Positions 31,902-62,424 of a stretch of DNA of 64,000 nt are shown in pieces. Position numbers and translations under genes: made by a program. The notes under the pieces are model-generated. The model made no database searches. It saw nothing but the letters and a program-made list of their open reading frames with translations, and was not told where the DNA came from. This DNA is from Fibrobacter sp. (GTDB taxonomy: Bacteria; Fibrobacterota; Fibrobacteria; Fibrobacterales; Fibrobacteraceae): positions 1-64,000 of the forward strand of contig JAFXLS010000095.1 in NCBI GenBank assembly GCA_017530965.1. Direction: 5' to 3'. Positions within the stretch are counted from its first letter, which is position 1; each line of letters starts with the position of its first letter.

Positions 31902-31934
31902 GTCATTGCAAGGAGCTTTGCGACGAAGCAATCC
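31902..31934. repeat. 33-nt palindromic repeat, intergenic copy
   Basis: Begins GTCATTGC and ends GAAGCAATCC, so ATTGC pairs with GCAAT, with a 15-base variable centre. It has the same length and the same arms as the copy inside the lipoprotein gene at 34124-34156. It lies between the purF leader and the end of the UbiA-family gene. Confidence 0.85.
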
Positions 31935-33056: not shown

Positions 33057-33995
33057 ATGTCTGACAATACCAATCATTCTACAAAAAACTACATCGTCAC
33101 GAACGAACAGGGCGAAGAATTTCTGTTGCCCAAATACGCGGCGACATTCCGCATCCTGATGGATGACAAGGACACAATCCGCGACGTACTCAACAGCCTG
33201 CTCCAGCTGGACCGCGACCATGAAATTGTAGACCTCGAATATGAATTCGAGAAACCCATCGACATCTTTATGCCCGAAAACGACCCCGCGCGCCTCGACG
33301 TCTGGGTGCATACTAGGGACAACCGCTACTTGAATGTCGAAATGCAAAACAAGGTTCACGCTTTCTTTTTCGATCGTATGCAGCTTTACAATTCGTACCT
33401 CACGCTGCGCGGCAAGTACGAGTTCAACCGTTCGGATTATTTCATGGGCCTGCCGGAAGAGGAACGCAAGTACCGATACTACGAACTCCCGGAAACGGTA
33501 TCCATTTGGCTCTGTAACGATTCCGTTCTCAGGACGAAGGATATCTACAAGGATGTATGGTCCACTTACAGCGAACATGAGGTCAAGTCAGGGAACGCCC
33601 TTCCCATTTCGCGGAAAAATAGGTATATTATCGTTGATCTGCCTAATTTCGTGAAACTGCGCAAGGGCGTGAAAACCCGCGAGGATTTCTGGCTCAGGCT
33701 TATCTCCAGAGGACCGCTCCAGGTTCCCGAGACGGTGGATCCGATTTTTGCGAATGCGCTAGACCGCCTGCGCGTAAGTCGCGTGAACCCTGAACTCTTG
33801 AAAGCCTTGGAGGCAAACATGTTCGACCATCATGAATACGAAGTTCTCGAAGCCGAAGCCTACCTCAAGGGCCAAGCAAATGGCGCACGGCAGGAACGTG
33901 AAAAAAACGAAGCTCGCGACTCAAAACGGGCTGACTTCTTGCGTTCGCAGAATGTGCCTGACAACGTGATTGCGGCAATGCTAGCCTTGAAATAG
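33057..33995 (+). CDS. Rpn-family recombination-promoting nuclease / PD-(D/E)XK protein
   Basis: A 312-residue protein of the Rpn/PDDEXK_2 family. The core is near residues 75-105: the metal-binding Asp in RLDVWVHT and the ExQ-type pair in NVEMQNKVHAFF, followed by RMQLYNSYL and, further on, PETVSIWLCN and RYIIVDLPNF. A charged C-terminal tail (LKGQANGARQEREKNEARDSKR) is typical. Rpn proteins are DNA nucleases linked to RecA-independent recombination and occur in many copies in gut bacteria. AAAGGAAA precedes the ATG. It is monocistronic with a terminator at 34022-34047. Confidence 0.88.
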   Translation: MSDNTNHSTKNYIVTNEQGEEFLLPKYAATFRILMDDKDTIRDVLNSLLQLDRDHEIVDLEYEFEKPIDIFMPENDPARLDVWVHTRDNRYLNVEMQNKVHAFFFDRMQLYNSYLTLRGKYEFNRSDYFMGLPEEERKYRYYELPETVSIWLCNDSVLRTKDIYKDVWSTYSEHEVKSGNALPISRKNRYIIVDLPNFVKLRKGVKTREDFWLRLISRGPLQVPETVDPIFANALDRLRVSRVNPELLKALEANMFDHHEYEVLEAEAYLKGQANGARQEREKNEARDSKRADFLRSQNVPDNVIAAMLALK

Positions 33996-34047: not shown

Positions 34048-34105
34048 CAATTCCTGCGACATTTAACTAAATTTGTCAAAAACGATTGAGGTTACTGGAG
34101 GTTCT

Positions 34106-35290
34106 GTGAAGATTTTTAAAAGCGTCATTGCGAGCCCTGTAAGGGCGAAGCAATCCATTTTTGGTCGGTTAGTATTTGCGCTTGTCTTTGCGTGTATTTT
34201 CATTGCGTGTGGCGATGAGTCTGGTAGCTCCGCTCCCGATCCAATCGGTGAAATCTCGTCGAGTAGCAATGAGGACCTTGGTTCCAGTTCTTCAGTGGCG
34301 GAGAAAAATTCTTCTAGCTCTGTAAAGCCTGGAGATGATTCGCAGAAGAGTTCTAGTAGCAAAAAGAATAATTCCAGTAGTTCTAGCGGGGATGGAAACT
34401 CTTCATCTTCTAGTAGTACAGAAACTATATGTAACGATGGTGATTTGGATACGCTTTATTCTGGGCTATATATTATATACAGAAAATGTGAAAATGGAAC
34501 ATGGGTGAAGGATCATTATGATGTTTTGCCTGCTTCATCGTCCTCTTCCTCTGATGCTCATTACGATATGACGGAACAATTCTATTGCAATGGGTATCCA
34601 GAATGTGAATATGCGTCGGAAGATTTTACGGATCCAAGAGATAAGCAAGTGTACAAAACGCTAACGTATGTATTCCTTGATTCGGGTCATGTTTATCGTG
34701 TCTTTGCCGAAAATTTGAATTATGGTAAACAGATAACGAAAAATTCTCTAAATTTTGACGACAATGCCGTAGAAAAATATTGCTACAACGATGATGAATG
34801 GTATTGTGATAACGGCTTTGGTGGCATGTACACCTGGAGCGAGGCCATGGGACTCCCCAAGGCATGCGATTCGCTATTTGTGGATAGTAGCAGTGCTTGC
34901 AAGGATAGCTTTGTTCCGCCTGAGGGACATTCGGAAAAATTTGGTTTTTATGTTCAGCGTCAGGGAATTTGTCCTGAAGGCTGGCATGTAATGAATGGTC
35001 GAGAATGGTTGCGTTTAAATGATGTGTCCCATAGGGGTTTGAGCTCTCCGATTGTTTGGCATGGGTGGAATAGTCGTGGCTTTTCTGCGCTTCCTGTTGG
35101 TTATTTAAAGGATGGGGAGTTTGTTGATTTTGGTGGATGGGCTGTATTCTTTGAACCAGAAGAGTTTAATGCGGAAGGAGCGAAAAGCCATTATATATCG
35201 AAGCAAGCTCATCATGAAGCGAATGATTACAAAAATATCGCAGCATCCATTCGGTGTGTAGAAGACTACGAAGATACTCTTTGGGAGTAA
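34106..35290 (+). CDS. Lipoprotein with serine-rich linker and FISUMP domain
   Basis: A 394-residue protein started at the GTG at 34106, with GGAGG 4 bases upstream; the frame extends to a TTG at 34073. The signal has a lipobox (ACIFIAC). Residues about 40-105 are a serine-rich linker common in secreted Fibrobacter proteins. The C-terminal half matches the Fibrobacter major paralogous (FISUMP, TIGR02145) domain: FTDPRDKQVYKTLTYVF, FAENLNYG, YTWSEAMG and GICPEGWHVMNGREW. The function is unknown; such lipoproteins are numerous in the genus. A 33-nt palindromic repeat (34124-34156) is embedded in frame just after the start, encoding VIASPVRAKQS. Confidence 0.88.
   Translation: MKIFKSVIASPVRAKQSIFGRLVFALVFACIFIACGDESGSSAPDPIGEISSSSNEDLGSSSSVAEKNSSSSVKPGDDSQKSSSSKKNNSSSSSGDGNSSSSSSTETICNDGDLDTLYSGLYIIYRKCENGTWVKDHYDVLPASSSSSSDAHYDMTEQFYCNGYPECEYASEDFTDPRDKQVYKTLTYVFLDSGHVYRVFAENLNYGKQITKNSLNFDDNAVEKYCYNDDEWYCDNGFGGMYTWSEAMGLPKACDSLFVDSSSACKDSFVPPEGHSEKFGFYVQRQGICPEGWHVMNGREWLRLNDVSHRGLSSPIVWHGWNSRGFSALPVGYLKDGEFVDFGGWAVFFEPEEFNAEGAKSHYISKQAHHEANDYKNIAASIRCVEDYEDTLWE
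34124..34156 (+). repeat. 33-nt palindromic repeat inside the FISUMP lipoprotein signal
   Basis: GTCATTGC arm, inner hairpin GCCCT-GTA-AGGGC and GAAGCAATCC arm. Its length of 33 equals 11 codons, and it is read as VIASPVRAKQS between the first six residues and the hydrophobic core of the signal peptide. The same arms occur at 31902-31934. Confidence 0.85.
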
Positions 35291-35735
35291 TCCCTTAAAA
35301 TCACAAACCTAAAAATTAAAAAGAGTGTGCGCAGGGGTGCACTTTGAGAAATGCGGAGGCGAATGCCTGGCCGCAAAGCGAACATTCGTCGGGCGAAGCC
35401 CGAGGCCATGCGAGCGTGCGGAGCAGGCTGAGCCGGAGCGTTTTTTTTTCGGACATGAAAAGCTGATGCCGATTTCCATCGGCATGACGCGGCCGGGAAG
35501 ACAAGTAAGAAGAATAACGCTTGGCCAACCAAAAAAAGCGTCGGCCAAGGAAAGGGAGGGTGCAGGGAGGGAACCGTGCGGCCTTCGCAAAAGTGTGCAA
35601 GTGAGTGTCGCACAGGCAAGTTTACTTGCCTGTATGACTGAACGTAGCCACGGACGCATAGCGTCCACTCCGAGCTGGGTTCCCTCCCGCATTATCGGGA
35701 TCTTAAGGGCAGAGCCCTTTTACTATATTTGCGGT
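35291..35735. other. Non-coding stretch dense in inverted repeats
   Basis: 445 bases without a convincing gene; ORFs on both strands cross it but show no protein-like composition. It contains CGAATG/CATTCG (35360-35388), TCGGGC-GAA-GCCCGA (35389-35403), ATGCCGAT-TTCC-ATCGGCAT (35466-35485), CTTGGCC/GGCCAAG (35520-35549), GGGAGGGAACC (35565-35575) pairing with GGTTCCCTCCC (35678-35688) around ACAGGCAAGT/ACTTGCCTGT (35612-35633) and GGACGC-ATA-GCGTCC (35652-35666), then AAGGGC-AGA-GCCCTT followed by TT. It is GC-richer than its flanks. It could be a structured RNA or a cluster of repeat elements; no RNase P, tmRNA or 6S signature was found. Confidence 0.6.
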
Positions 35736-58247: not shown

Positions 58248-60958
58248 TGAAATTGTTTTTCGTTTTGCTTGTTTTTTGGCTTTGTTCCTGTTCGAATTCG
58301 GACTCGGTCTCTGTATATCCGCAAAACACATCTTTGGAAATCGCAGAAGATTCCCTTGTTGGGATGTTCCGCGTCAGGACCGCCGAATCTGTTGCCATCT
58401 TGGGAACGGACTTGGAAAAGGCGAAGGCCAATGAAACACCTGCGATGGAGGTGAAATTTGATTATGATTTTTCAATTGGCAAGCATGAGGTTACATGTGG
58501 CGAATTTAATTCTCTGATGAAGCCTTTGACGGGGCATTCACTGGACTGTGAGGGCGATAGTCTCCCTGCCACAAATTTGACATACTATGATGCGGTTCTT
58601 TATGCGAACGAACGCAGCAAAGCCGAAGGTTTCGATACGGCCTATACCTATATTTCGGTGAGTTTCGACACGGAAAAGCATTGCACAAATTTGGCTGGGC
58701 TTGTCTTTCGTCCCGAGGTAAATGCGTATCGTTTGCCGACTGAAGCGGAGTGGAATCTGGTGGCTGCTTCGAACTGGAAAAAAGGTTGGACGGCCGATAA
58801 TGCAAAACAAAAATTGCATAATGTTTGTAGCCGCGATACGGCTGCAAGAATCTGTGACATGGTCGGAAATGCGATGGAATGGGTGAACGATTGGCTCGGA
58901 AACTTACGCGATACGACTATCGTAAATTATGTGGGGGCTCCCGATGGCGGAGCCTTGGGACAACGCGTGGTAAAGGGCGGTAGTTATCGTAATGCCTCTA
59001 AATCCATCAACATCTATAGCCGTGGTGACGTGTATACGGTCACGTCTTCGACCAGGGCTGATTATGTCGGGTTTCGTCTTGCTTATGGGGCTATTCCCAA
59101 TCCCATTTGGATGAATGCGAAAGGAACTGCGGCAACAAGCCGTATCCTTCCTTTGGCGACTCCAGCGACAATGCGTTCTTTGACGGGAACCTACAAGGTA
59201 AAACTGGCGTTTCGTAATGACTTGACGGGGAACCTCGCTTTTATCAATTATGGCAGTGGTTCTTTGTCGGTTATTGAAATTGAGGATTCCCTTGCTGTTT
59301 ACCATCCTGAAATTTCTCCGGATGGACAGTGGGTTGCCTTCTGTACAAAACTTGAAGGCGTATCTGGAACATCGACGGTCTTTGTGCGTCGCTTGAATGC
59401 GGATGGTTCCGATTTAGTAAAGTTGAATGTCGAAAGTGCTGTAATTCCCCGTTGGCAGGTTCTTGAAAATGGCGATACGGTTGTCGTTTATGTGACTGAT
59501 GCGGGGAATAATAAAAACGATGCTTCTTTTAAGGCCTCATCGACTTGGCAAGTGAAATTTGCAAATGGCAAGTTTGGAACTCCGCAGAAGCTTTTCGACG
59601 GGGCCTATCATGGGGGCTTTAGCGAAGACCGTTCCTTGGCCGTGACGGGAGCGCGTCTGCTTCGTGCCCGCGTTTTGGGGCGTGATACGGTATGGTACGG
59701 CGGCGAACAGGCCTGCAATGCGTCCCTTTCGAAAGACGGTTCAAAGCGCACCCTGTTCCTTGATTTTGGCGGAACGACCGGTCAAAAGTTTGTTGGTGAA
59801 AAATATGGGACGCATGAACAGTTGCTGATTGCTGATTCTCTTGGAAAACTAATACAGTCAATACCTGCTCCGGCGGGCTATTCCTTTGACCATAGCGAAT
59901 GGGTCTTTGGATCGGATAATCTTGTGGTGGCGACGCTTTCGAATGATGATGGGGCCCATACGAAAATAGTGTCGGTCAATTTGCAGGACAGTTCTATTGT
60001 TGATATCCTTGAAGGCGATGAAGTTTGGCATCCGAGTCTATGGGCCAATCCCAATGTGATTCCGTCGAATGAATTCTTGCTTGATTTGGACAGTGCGGGA
60101 ATGTATTTCATTGAAGGTGGATCTGATAGGTCAAAGATTTTGCGGTACCGCATGGAAATGATGTGGAAGTACAGGGATTCTGCAGAACTGGTGGTGCTTG
60201 GATCTTCGCGTGCGGCAAATGGAATAGATGCTTCTATAATTGGAGTGACCTCGGTTAATTTGTCTTATTTCCCGAACTCCTTCTTTGATGTATGTCATAT
60301 GTATGAACGTTATGTTGAAAAAGGTTTCAAGAAATTAAAATATATCGTTGTCTCGATTGATATTGATTTTTGGAATTTTTCACCTCAGTTTAGTTTCTTC
60401 AGCTCGGAATACGAACAATTCCCGGGATACGTTTACGACCAAAATCATAATTATTGGTTAGATGAAGATTGTAGTGCAATTTACGCAGCTACGCAAAATG
60501 CCCCTGGCCTAGATACGTATAAAGGAATGTTTCTAGGTCTAAGAAGTTCCGAATTTGCAACTTCCCAGGGATGGGGCGTATCTGAATATGAAGATAGCAC
60601 TTGGATGGACAAACAGAGGGCTGCTTATGAAGAAACTTACGTTGCCTTCGTGGATTTTTTGAAAGTTACTCAGCAAAAGGGGTTGACCGTAGTAGGGATT
60701 GTTTTCCCGCAATCTCCGGCTTATCGCAATTCGGGCATCTGGGGGCGACATGGCTTGCGTCGTAGTGAGGCGGTCGAAATCCTAGACAGTCTGGCAAGAT
60801 TGCAAAAGAAATATCCCCATTTCATTTTTATGGATGAAAATAAAATGGGATACCACGATTATGATGACTCCATGGCTCAGGATTGTGATCACATGAATGC
60901 ACGCGGTGCAGAACAGCTGACGGTTCGTTTGGATTCGTTGATTAAAACTTTGAAATGA
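58244..60958 (+). CDS. TIGR02171-family lipoprotein, second copy
   Basis: A 904-residue paralogue of the preceding protein over its full length, with the same order: lipobox (LCSC), FGE-like domain (YDFSIGKHEVTCGEFNSLM, RLPTEAEWNLV, GNAMEWVNDWLG, GGSYRN), propeller segment, and C-terminal VVLGSSRAANGID with DCDHMNARGAEQLT. The FGE and propeller parts are close to the first copy; the SGNH-like parts differ more. The ATG overlaps the upstream stop, and its own stop overlaps the membrane protein start. The pair may act on different substrates or as a heterodimer. Confidence 0.9.
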   Translation: MMKLFFVLLVFWLCSCSNSDSVSVYPQNTSLEIAEDSLVGMFRVRTAESVAILGTDLEKAKANETPAMEVKFDYDFSIGKHEVTCGEFNSLMKPLTGHSLDCEGDSLPATNLTYYDAVLYANERSKAEGFDTAYTYISVSFDTEKHCTNLAGLVFRPEVNAYRLPTEAEWNLVAASNWKKGWTADNAKQKLHNVCSRDTAARICDMVGNAMEWVNDWLGNLRDTTIVNYVGAPDGGALGQRVVKGGSYRNASKSINIYSRGDVYTVTSSTRADYVGFRLAYGAIPNPIWMNAKGTAATSRILPLATPATMRSLTGTYKVKLAFRNDLTGNLAFINYGSGSLSVIEIEDSLAVYHPEISPDGQWVAFCTKLEGVSGTSTVFVRRLNADGSDLVKLNVESAVIPRWQVLENGDTVVVYVTDAGNNKNDASFKASSTWQVKFANGKFGTPQKLFDGAYHGGFSEDRSLAVTGARLLRARVLGRDTVWYGGEQACNASLSKDGSKRTLFLDFGGTTGQKFVGEKYGTHEQLLIADSLGKLIQSIPAPAGYSFDHSEWVFGSDNLVVATLSNDDGAHTKIVSVNLQDSSIVDILEGDEVWHPSLWANPNVIPSNEFLLDLDSAGMYFIEGGSDRSKILRYRMEMMWKYRDSAELVVLGSSRAANGIDASIIGVTSVNLSYFPNSFFDVCHMYERYVEKGFKKLKYIVVSIDIDFWNFSPQFSFFSSEYEQFPGYVYDQNHNYWLDEDCSAIYAATQNAPGLDTYKGMFLGLRSSEFATSQGWGVSEYEDSTWMDKQRAAYEETYVAFVDFLKVTQQKGLTVVGIVFPQSPAYRNSGIWGRHGLRRSEAVEILDSLARLQKKYPHFIFMDENKMGYHDYDDSMAQDCDHMNARGAEQLTVRLDSLIKTLK

Positions 60959-62424
60959 TAATAGCGGTTTTTGTCATCCTGTTCGCGATTTTCCCGCTGA
61001 CCGATACCGATATCTGGTGGCATTTGGCGTGTGCTCGCGAGTGGGTGATTACGTGGACGCCTGTCCGTGCGCCCGTTGTGAATGTGCATGAATATTTTCA
61101 GCTAGTTGTAGGCTTTGTCTATGGCTTGGGTGGAACTCCACTTTTGGTGGCTTTCAAGGCGGTGTTGTGGGGCGTGGTCTTCGCACTGTTTGGATGTGGG
61201 AGAAGTCATGGTGCCCCCCCTAAGAACGTCATTGCTAGCCCCGCAGGAGGGCCTGCCACGAGCGTAGCGTGGTGGTGGCAATCTTTAGTAGTCGTATTTG
61301 TCCTTTTTGTTTTCCGTTACCATTTCGAAATGCGCCCGGTGCTTTTTTCGCTTCTGTTTCTTGGAATATACTGGAATGCGATTCCGTGGCTTGTAAAAAA
61401 ATACAGAGAGTCCCGGCTAGATGTAAAACAGGTTGCATGCGCTGCGCTGATTCTTGCTCTTCAGTGGTTTTGGTGCAAGTGTCAGGGGCTTTATATCTTG
61501 GGCCCGATTTTTGCAACTTTGGTGTTGTGCGTCAGTTTACTTGAATCAAAAAAACAGGGCCGATTTTCCGCAAAATACATTGTTCCGCAAGTTGTTTTTG
61601 TTCTACTCCTCTGGGCAATGCCGTTCTTGCATCGCGAAGGTTTGGCTTTGTTCCTGTATCCGTTTGGGTTGCTGGATCGCCTGCTTGGCCTTACTCTTTC
61701 TGCCGCGGTATTTGCAAGTCAAATTTCCGAGAACCGTTCTCCTATAACGCTTTTAATGGCGGGGGAGAATATACTGGAAAGCGTGCTGATGGTTTTGCTC
61801 TGCATGGCAGGAATTTTTGTGAGTATAAAAAGAATCTTTAGAAGTGTTGTTCCGAATGGGGCTCTTTTTGTGACAGCGATTCTCGCCCTTGTTGCCGAAC
61901 GTAACTTTGTGCTGTTCTTGCCGGTACTTTTAGCGACTTTGCCTAATTTCCCATTTCACACTCCACATTTCACATCGTGCCGCCTACTGTCTACGGTCTA
62001 CTTTCTACTTACTTTCTTCATCTTGGGTCTTTGGACCCGCTCACTTTCCGCTTACGATTTTTCGATGGTTGCTTATCAGCGTGTTCCCGTAGATGCTGCC
62101 CGATGGATGCAGGAACATCCGCACCAGGGACGGCTCTTCAATGATGACCGTGCGGGCGGTTACCTTGCCTTTGTAAATCCTGCCGATTCTATTTATATCG
62201 ACGGACGATTTATCTTAAAGACGGCGGATTTCTTTGAATGGTATCTGAATTACGCCAAGGATCCCGCCTTGTTTATGCATGACGCCGATTCTTTAGGCAT
62301 CGACCGTGCCTTATTCCCGTTGCTGTATTACGCCCGCTGGGATGAACTAATGTTTGCCCTTAATCAAGATTCCCGTTGGCACCAGGTTTACCGCGACAAA
62401 TACTTCGCCGTGTTCGATAAATAA
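60955..62424 (+). CDS. Polytopic membrane protein with embedded repeats
   Basis: A 489-residue protein with about ten hydrophobic helices and a periplasmic C-terminal domain of about 110 residues (WMQEHPHQGRLFNDDRAGGYLAFVNPADSIYIDGRFI). The start TDTDIWWHLACAREWV resembles GT-C-type glycosyltransferase-like membrane proteins whose Asp motif sits in the first loop, so a lipid-linked-sugar transferase is possible but unproven. It overlaps the upstream stop (ATGA). Two repeat elements are translated inside it (61228-61283 and 61950-62020). It is the last gene of the operon. Confidence 0.78.
   Translation: MIIAVFVILFAIFPLTDTDIWWHLACAREWVITWTPVRAPVVNVHEYFQLVVGFVYGLGGTPLLVAFKAVLWGVVFALFGCGRSHGAPPKNVIASPAGGPATSVAWWWQSLVVVFVLFVFRYHFEMRPVLFSLLFLGIYWNAIPWLVKKYRESRLDVKQVACAALILALQWFWCKCQGLYILGPIFATLVLCVSLLESKKQGRFSAKYIVPQVVFVLLLWAMPFLHREGLALFLYPFGLLDRLLGLTLSAAVFASQISENRSPITLLMAGENILESVLMVLLCMAGIFVSIKRIFRSVVPNGALFVTAILALVAERNFVLFLPVLLATLPNFPFHTPHFTSCRLLSTVYFLLTFFILGLWTRSLSAYDFSMVAYQRVPVDAARWMQEHPHQGRLFNDDRAGGYLAFVNPADSIYIDGRFILKTADFFEWYLNYAKDPALFMHDADSLGIDRALFPLLYYARWDELMFALNQDSRWHQVYRDKYFAVFDK
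61228..61283 (+). repeat. 56-nt palindromic repeat inside the membrane protein gene
   Basis: Begins GTCATTGCTAGCCCC and ends GGCAATC, with ATTGC/GCAAT arms and two inner hairpins, GCAGG-AGGG-CCTGC and CCACG-AGCGTAG-CGTGG. It is read as VIASPAGG...VAWWWQS, in the same frame (GTC as Val) as the copy in the lipoprotein gene at 34124. Confidence 0.82.
61950..62020 (+). repeat. Heptameric repeats inside the membrane protein gene
   Basis: Two heptamer types in sequence: TTTCACA/CTCCACA units (61953-61978) and CTACTGT, CTACGGT, CTACTTT, CTACTTA units (61984-62011). They are translated as PFHTPHFTSCRLLSTVYFLL at the edge of a membrane helix. Confidence 0.75.

Follow-up and report, generated by a model that had tools for sequence, protein, structure and literature searches.

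The FISUMP lipoprotein gene and its leader

The DNA analysed here (hereafter the window) is a stretch of 64,000 nucleotides from a Fibrobacter sp. (contig JAFXLS010000095.1). It carries a gene encoding a FISUMP-domain lipoprotein, and a short repetitive extragenic palindrome-like element (REP) lies in frame within the signal peptide. Genomes, contigs and loci are designated below by G, C and L numbers, the window belonging to G000. The features of the locus are the following:

33057-33995, + strand: PD-(D/E)XK (PDDEXK_2/Rpn-like) gene (PF12784, E = 2.9e-13), with a 3' end in synteny with G003 L357 and G030 L037
34021-34125, + strand: upstream leader shared with the empty G003 paralogue L354 (blastn, 105/105 nt identical), the divergence starting exactly at the REP
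34097-34101, + strand: Shine-Dalgarno sequence GGAGG of the FISUMP gene, read from the sequence, four bases ahead of the GTG
34106-35290, + strand: FISUMP-domain lipoprotein gene, GTG start, 394 aa (TIGR02145, E = 2.2e-21; PF09603, E = 6.9e-14)
34123-34157, + strand: CGTC-tagged REP, revealed by folding (CGTC tag, stem ATTGC/GCAAT, GA/GAA internal loop, stem GCCCT/AGGGC, loop GTA, CCA tail)
34124-34156, + strand: 11 REP-encoded codons, VIASPVRAKQS, in the n-region of the signal peptide (translation)
34157-34210, + strand: hydrophobic core and lipobox, IFGRLVFALVFACIFIA-C, with Cys35 at 34208-34210 (translation)

In the frame of the GTG at 34106, positions 34124-34156 (GTCATTGCGAGCCCTGTAAGGGCGAAGCAATCC) are translated as VIASPVRAKQS. 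These residues are codons 7-17, between VKIFKS and the hydrophobic core. The original prediction, that the repeat separates the start from the core and adds positive charge to the n-region, is borne out, the added basic residues being Arg13 and Lys15. With its basic n-region, hydrophobic core and FIA-C lipobox, the product is predicted to be a bacterial lipoprotein. The lipobox cysteine is intact, as had been proposed (Cys35, FIA-C-GDE); another cysteine is found at position 30, and a Ser-rich linker stands behind Cys35.

A start codon downstream of the hairpin would place the repeat in a 5' untranslated region, and many N-terminal REPs may indeed be extragenic owing to misannotated starts (Di Nocera 2013, PMC3733652). 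For the FISUMP gene, this is very improbable. From the hairpin to the lipobox, the window sequence offers no ATG, GTG or TTG in frame, which places the start ahead of the hairpin; without an upstream start, the n-region would be missing. Moreover, a Shine-Dalgarno sequence upstream of GTG or ATG is conserved among FISUMP paralogues, and the combination SD-GTG-AAG-ATT is also kept in the REP-free ones. We thus infer that the REP-encoded peptide is made.

Past the FISUMP gene, pieces of the non-coding stretch at 35320-35735 recur elsewhere in the genome: 35531-35590 has an identical counterpart on C32, and 35320-35387 matches at 94% a sequence behind the FISUMP paralogue on contig C115. The same stretch carries long inverted segments (GGGAGGGAACC/GGTTCCCTCCC).

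Structure and classification of the element

The full element at 34123-34157 (CGTCATTGCGAGCCCTGTAAGGGCGAAGCAATCCA) is 35 nt long and folds as ....(((((..(((((...)))))...)))))... with a free energy of -13.4 kcal/mol (z = -2.70); the hairpin also forms when the sequence is folded as DNA. The stem is made of 5+5 bp, opens with complementary AT and leaves the CGTC and CCA ends unpaired. In a set of 31 distinct, equally long copies, pairing of the inner stem survives changes on both sides: columns 13-19 are paired in 27 of these copies, against 13.5 expected, and columns 11-21 in 12, against 5.7 expected. Copies of further length classes are present in our survey of 148 REP copies, taken from stretches of 12 Fibrobacter genomes. 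In this survey, the tag is CGTC in 99 copies and TGTC in 49, and the most frequent tails are CCA, as in the window (49 copies), CTC (45) and CTA (31).

REPs with a CGTC tag have been reported from Proteobacteria, Chlorobi, Bacteroidetes, Spirochaetes and Thermotogae (Di Nocera 2013, PMC3733652). This superfamily is recognised by an unpaired CGTC, TGTC or CCTC at one end, a stem opening with AT and a short unpaired tail that is mostly CCA; the window element has these features and belongs to it. An Rfam search gave no match at the REP. The families CGTC-1 to CGTC-4 have stems of 8-9 bp and loops of 4-5 nt, whereas in the Fibrobacter element the stem is interrupted by an internal loop (5+5 bp) and the terminal loop has 3 nt; because of these different lengths, we file it under the superfamily only. 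The published CGTC-tagged REPs share with it not only the unpaired end, the leading AT and a CCA-like tail of 3 nt, but also dispersed, partly intragenic copies and the lack of an associated transposase. The same study noted intragenic copies and found no dedicated transposase; Fibrobacter is absent from it and a signal-peptide bias is not reported there.

The Fibrobacter element is in keeping with this expectation of no dedicated transposase, as far as PF01797 (RAYT-like) is concerned. A search of its own genome with this profile found no match. The domain is present in 20 of 61 genomes of the genus, and a REP is nearby at none of 20 such loci. We therefore rejected mobilisation by a RAYT. 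REPs of the GTAG type, which are mobilised by RAYT (IS200/IS605-like) transposases, are likewise short dispersed palindromes, but the Fibrobacter REP lacks the GTAG tag and is absent from the surroundings of the 20 PF01797 loci.

Copy number and distribution

We counted 27 REP copies in the genome of the window, with exact arms and with middles that vary in length and sequence, while the reversed control pattern gave none. Across the genus, copies are found in 56 of 61 genomes (1 to about 50 in each; control 0 throughout), and across the phylum, in a patchy manner, in 92 of 167. Beyond the phylum, the pattern is widespread among the matches listed, mostly in Alphaproteobacteria, Spirochaetes and Bacteroidetes, and these matches include at least one contig of a Rickettsia endosymbiont with the core pattern. 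An inverted-repeat search with default settings did not report a hairpin at 34123-34157, which folding and copy counting revealed; taken alone, this result would suit a palindrome formed by chance in coding sequence. The copy counts in the genome and in the genus refute such an origin, whose probability we regard as virtually nil, and they confirm that a palindromic repeat lies in the lipoprotein signal peptide.

Two other REP sequences were observed in the window. A degenerate copy (GTCATTGCAAGGAGCTTTGCGACGAAGCAATCC) occupies 31902-31934, between the Fibro-purF RNA of purF (RF02974, 31727-31801) and the next gene. A composite REP at 61227-61285 is in frame within a predicted membrane-protein gene (60955-62424) and encodes NVIASPAGGPATSVAWWWQSLV; a similar composite, NVIARFVAKPAMSGAWWWQSLV, makes up the n-region of a lipoprotein of G020 (L119). 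In three genomes, in-frame REPs are present in genes starting with MDGKQLKNSILQWAIQGKLVPQNPKDEPAQKLLE that look like type I restriction specificity subunits (L188, L199, L254).

Probable insertion and recombination at the FISUMP locus

The same locus was found in G003, another Fibrobacter species (L357), where the adjoining PD-(D/E)XK gene has a similar end (NVPDSVIAAMLALK vs. NVPDNVIAAMLALK). There, the leader matches the window at 89.6% as far as 34125 and continues with VKIFKSVLALSVLLTMLVACGDE, without the repeat. Since this syntenic leader matches up to the hairpin and is then empty, sequence comparison identifies the REP of the FISUMP leader as a probable insertion. Empty FISUMP paralogues (L354, L365 and L366) and REP-free orthologues of other exported proteins (see below) also support the in-frame insertion that the original prediction had proposed. 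Filled leaders with a loop of the window type are found in G000, G030, G057 (three genes) and G067 (two genes). Among the leaders read, we saw no orthologue having the same amino acids without the repeat arms.

The event itself is less simple than had been supposed. An orthologous version lacking exactly the 33 bases had been named as a check, and none of the fetched FISUMP leaders corresponds to the window leader minus these 33 nt: the hydrophobic core, too, differs between the filled and the known empty leaders. A clean insertion of 33 nt into the window leader is thus one candidate event, and the 33 nt denote a frame-preserving footprint of the insert. The predicted size of exactly 11 codons holds for this footprint (34124-34156) and not for the natural element, which has 35 nt instead of 33. 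For the window gene, a leader swap is as likely as a clean insertion.

We then compared the window gene with its syntenic counterpart in G030. Both flanks of the gene can be aligned (86% and 97%). At the DNA level, identity is 97% over the first 60 aligned codons (dS = 0.05) and 52% over the rest of the gene (dS = 2.4). The body of the window gene finds its match elsewhere, in a paralogue on contig C115. These comparisons suggest that leader and body of FISUMP genes recombine and that the REP travels with the leader. The window gene has therefore probably received its REP through a shared leader cassette, and the in-frame insertion need not have been its own event. In such mosaics (34106-35290, L037, L066), the leader hardly differs between species at a syntenic locus and the body is nearer to another paralogue, which resembles an arrangement of constant leader and variable body.

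The REP and the core may also have been acquired together, as a single block, through recombination with another lipoprotein gene in which the REP had inserted earlier; we place this tenable reading somewhat short of probable. It would account for the sharp drop in identity behind the leader, for the different cores of filled and empty leaders, and for the different FISUMP bodies at the syntenic locus. However, it merely shifts the original insertion to the donor leader, and at least one independent acquisition is found among FISUMP genes themselves, the leader of L075 having a different REP loop (MNYVIASVTKQSIFL). Block acquisition is compatible with the explanation that we favour, an insertion into a FISUMP leader, the difference being where the insertion happened. 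Other palindromes or inserts occupy the same leader position in the FISUMP genes L042/L373, L074 and L069.

Recurrence in unrelated exported proteins

The REP recurs in the signal peptides of unrelated exported proteins, for which empty orthologues are also available. A single-copy ExbB-like protein, present in 80 out of 80 genomes, is filled in G024, G056, G025 and G057 (MKNCFKSLRATRSNRSIF..., in a second frame, in G024; MYKHVIASVAKQSRTAL... in G057) and empty in G058, which is 90% identical to G024, and in G041. A lipoprotein starting with MNLFK has the REP in G000 and G071 and a different palindrome, GGTCCCTGAGCCTGTCGAAGGGCC, in G020 and G057; it is empty in G060, G067, G033 and G001, in proteins 94-97% identical to the query. 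Finally, a small lipoprotein reads MKNVIARAAKQSTVALFLF in G000, MKNVIASATKQSTVAFFLL in G003 and MKNVIALFLL in G049. In G049, the 5' arm is retained and 27 nt (9 codons) are absent; this deletion was read by eye (ATGAAAAACGTCATTGCG followed by CTTTTT), as the MAFFT alignment misplaces the gap.

A search for a start codon followed by the repeat yielded 30 matches, distributed over 19 of 80 genomes (control 0). Among the matches on the forward strand, which were translated, several are true leaders and others are out of frame or not genes. In addition, other repeat types (CATCCTGAG...GGATC palindromes, LETRDER-like repeats and GGTCCCTGAGCCTGTCGAAGGGCC) fill n-regions in L277, L278, L283, L287, L297, L074 and L069, that is, in signal peptides of orthologues or paralogues of REP-bearing genes.

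Bias of intragenic REPs towards n-regions

To locate the 148 surveyed copies relative to genes, we used a home-made gene caller based on codon usage and blind to the repeat itself. Only 58 copies are intragenic, although coding sequence makes up 85% of the DNA surveyed. Of these 58, twelve lie at most 60 nt from a start (5.2% expected; P = 3.6e-5), although this number includes orthologous copies and stands for about nine independent protein families. All 12 are on the coding strand and 11 are in the VIA frame. Relative to the average, REP density is 6.07 in the n-regions of signal-peptide-like genes (hydrophobic N-terminus), 4.63 in intergenic DNA and 0.37 in other coding DNA; n-regions thus exceed other coding DNA about 16-fold. 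A filter for n-region cases retained 11 among 147 Fibrobacter copies (one of them, L176, probably with an internal start), against a single doubtful case among 149 copies on 80 contigs of other taxa, a comparison in which Bacteroidetes cases may be missed because the filter demands a Shine-Dalgarno sequence.

Farther from starts, the phases of intragenic REPs (survey loci L009-L263) are same1 18, same0 11, opp1 9, same2 5, opp0 2 and opp2 1; here too, the Cys-rich frame (RHCE/CHCE) is avoided, as are two of the antisense frames.

Origin and retention of the REP

It is likely, in our view, that a REP entered the n-region of a FISUMP leader, was kept by tolerance and was then spread by recombination of leaders. 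REPs would scatter over the chromosome and land everywhere, most of the copies landing in genes being purged. N-regions, for which shortness and basic charge would be enough, would accept a REP whenever its length and frame fit. In this way, a CGTC-tagged hairpin would have come to lie in the n-region of a FISUMP lipoprotein. The VIA frame (VIA-x-KQS) provides a Lys, often an Arg, and no stop, so that the signal peptide should keep working. The REP would have been retained because it is, in this frame, a multiple of three, stop-free and basic, and the tolerance of n-regions for short basic in-frame inserts would bring the repeat density to about the intergenic level. The REP-bearing leader would then have spread among paralogues and species. 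Retention would accordingly be neutral, with no positive selection involved.

Tolerance by itself, however, hardly accounts for a REP density that is slightly higher in n-regions than in intergenic DNA despite the in-frame requirement. This excess, the single frame of 11 out of 12 start-proximal copies and the repeated presence of several palindrome families at one spot in orthologues speak for a co-opted element, kept as a useful basic n-region or as an mRNA hairpin behind the start that tunes initiation. We consider such co-option unlikely: the whole leader (34066-34200) folds no better than shuffled sequences (z = -0.43), empty orthologues are common and equally intact, and the frame bias is expected anyway if only the VIA frame is tolerated. 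The repeat may have an adaptive or regulatory role, acting on expression or targeting. A broader version, in which REP hairpins are mobile n-region modules, repeatedly recruited and selected to build or retune signal peptides, possibly affecting expression through an mRNA hairpin near the start codon, and further spread by recombination of leader cassettes, seems to us unlikely as well.

Relation to known repeats and significance

Palindromic elements inserted in frame in protein-coding genes are reportedly known from Rickettsia (Ogata, Claverie), and the original prediction had drawn this comparison. It is apt, as RPE-4 and RPE-6 of R. conorii have been placed among the CGTC-tagged REPs (PMC3733652). 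Like these in-frame palindromes, the Fibrobacter REPs occur within genes, but the Rickettsia elements are spread along many kinds of proteins whereas a marked share of the Fibrobacter REPs is found in signal-peptide n-regions. In Yersinia, the RU-2/YPAL MITE forms part of the predicted signal peptide of YPO1552 (Delihas 2007, PMC2759123); this is an isolated example and concerns a 168-bp MITE of another element family. Our search of the open-access literature turned up no description of such repeats in Fibrobacter, in agreement with the original prediction, and none of signal-peptide n-regions as a recurrent site of repeats. The class of element and the phenomenon are thus already known, while the n-region niche and the phylum appear to be undescribed.

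Within a single genus, Fibrobacter, repeat DNA appears to have become protein many times over, at a defined and functional position, the n-region. This suggests that repeats are tolerated where they land at the start of an export signal, and so come to encode protein. Orthologues that are filled, empty or differently filled offer a direct measure of the origin of signal peptides and of neutral versus selected inserts. Moreover, the range of the CGTC-tagged REPs, for which no transposase is known, now includes a genus in which their movements could be followed.
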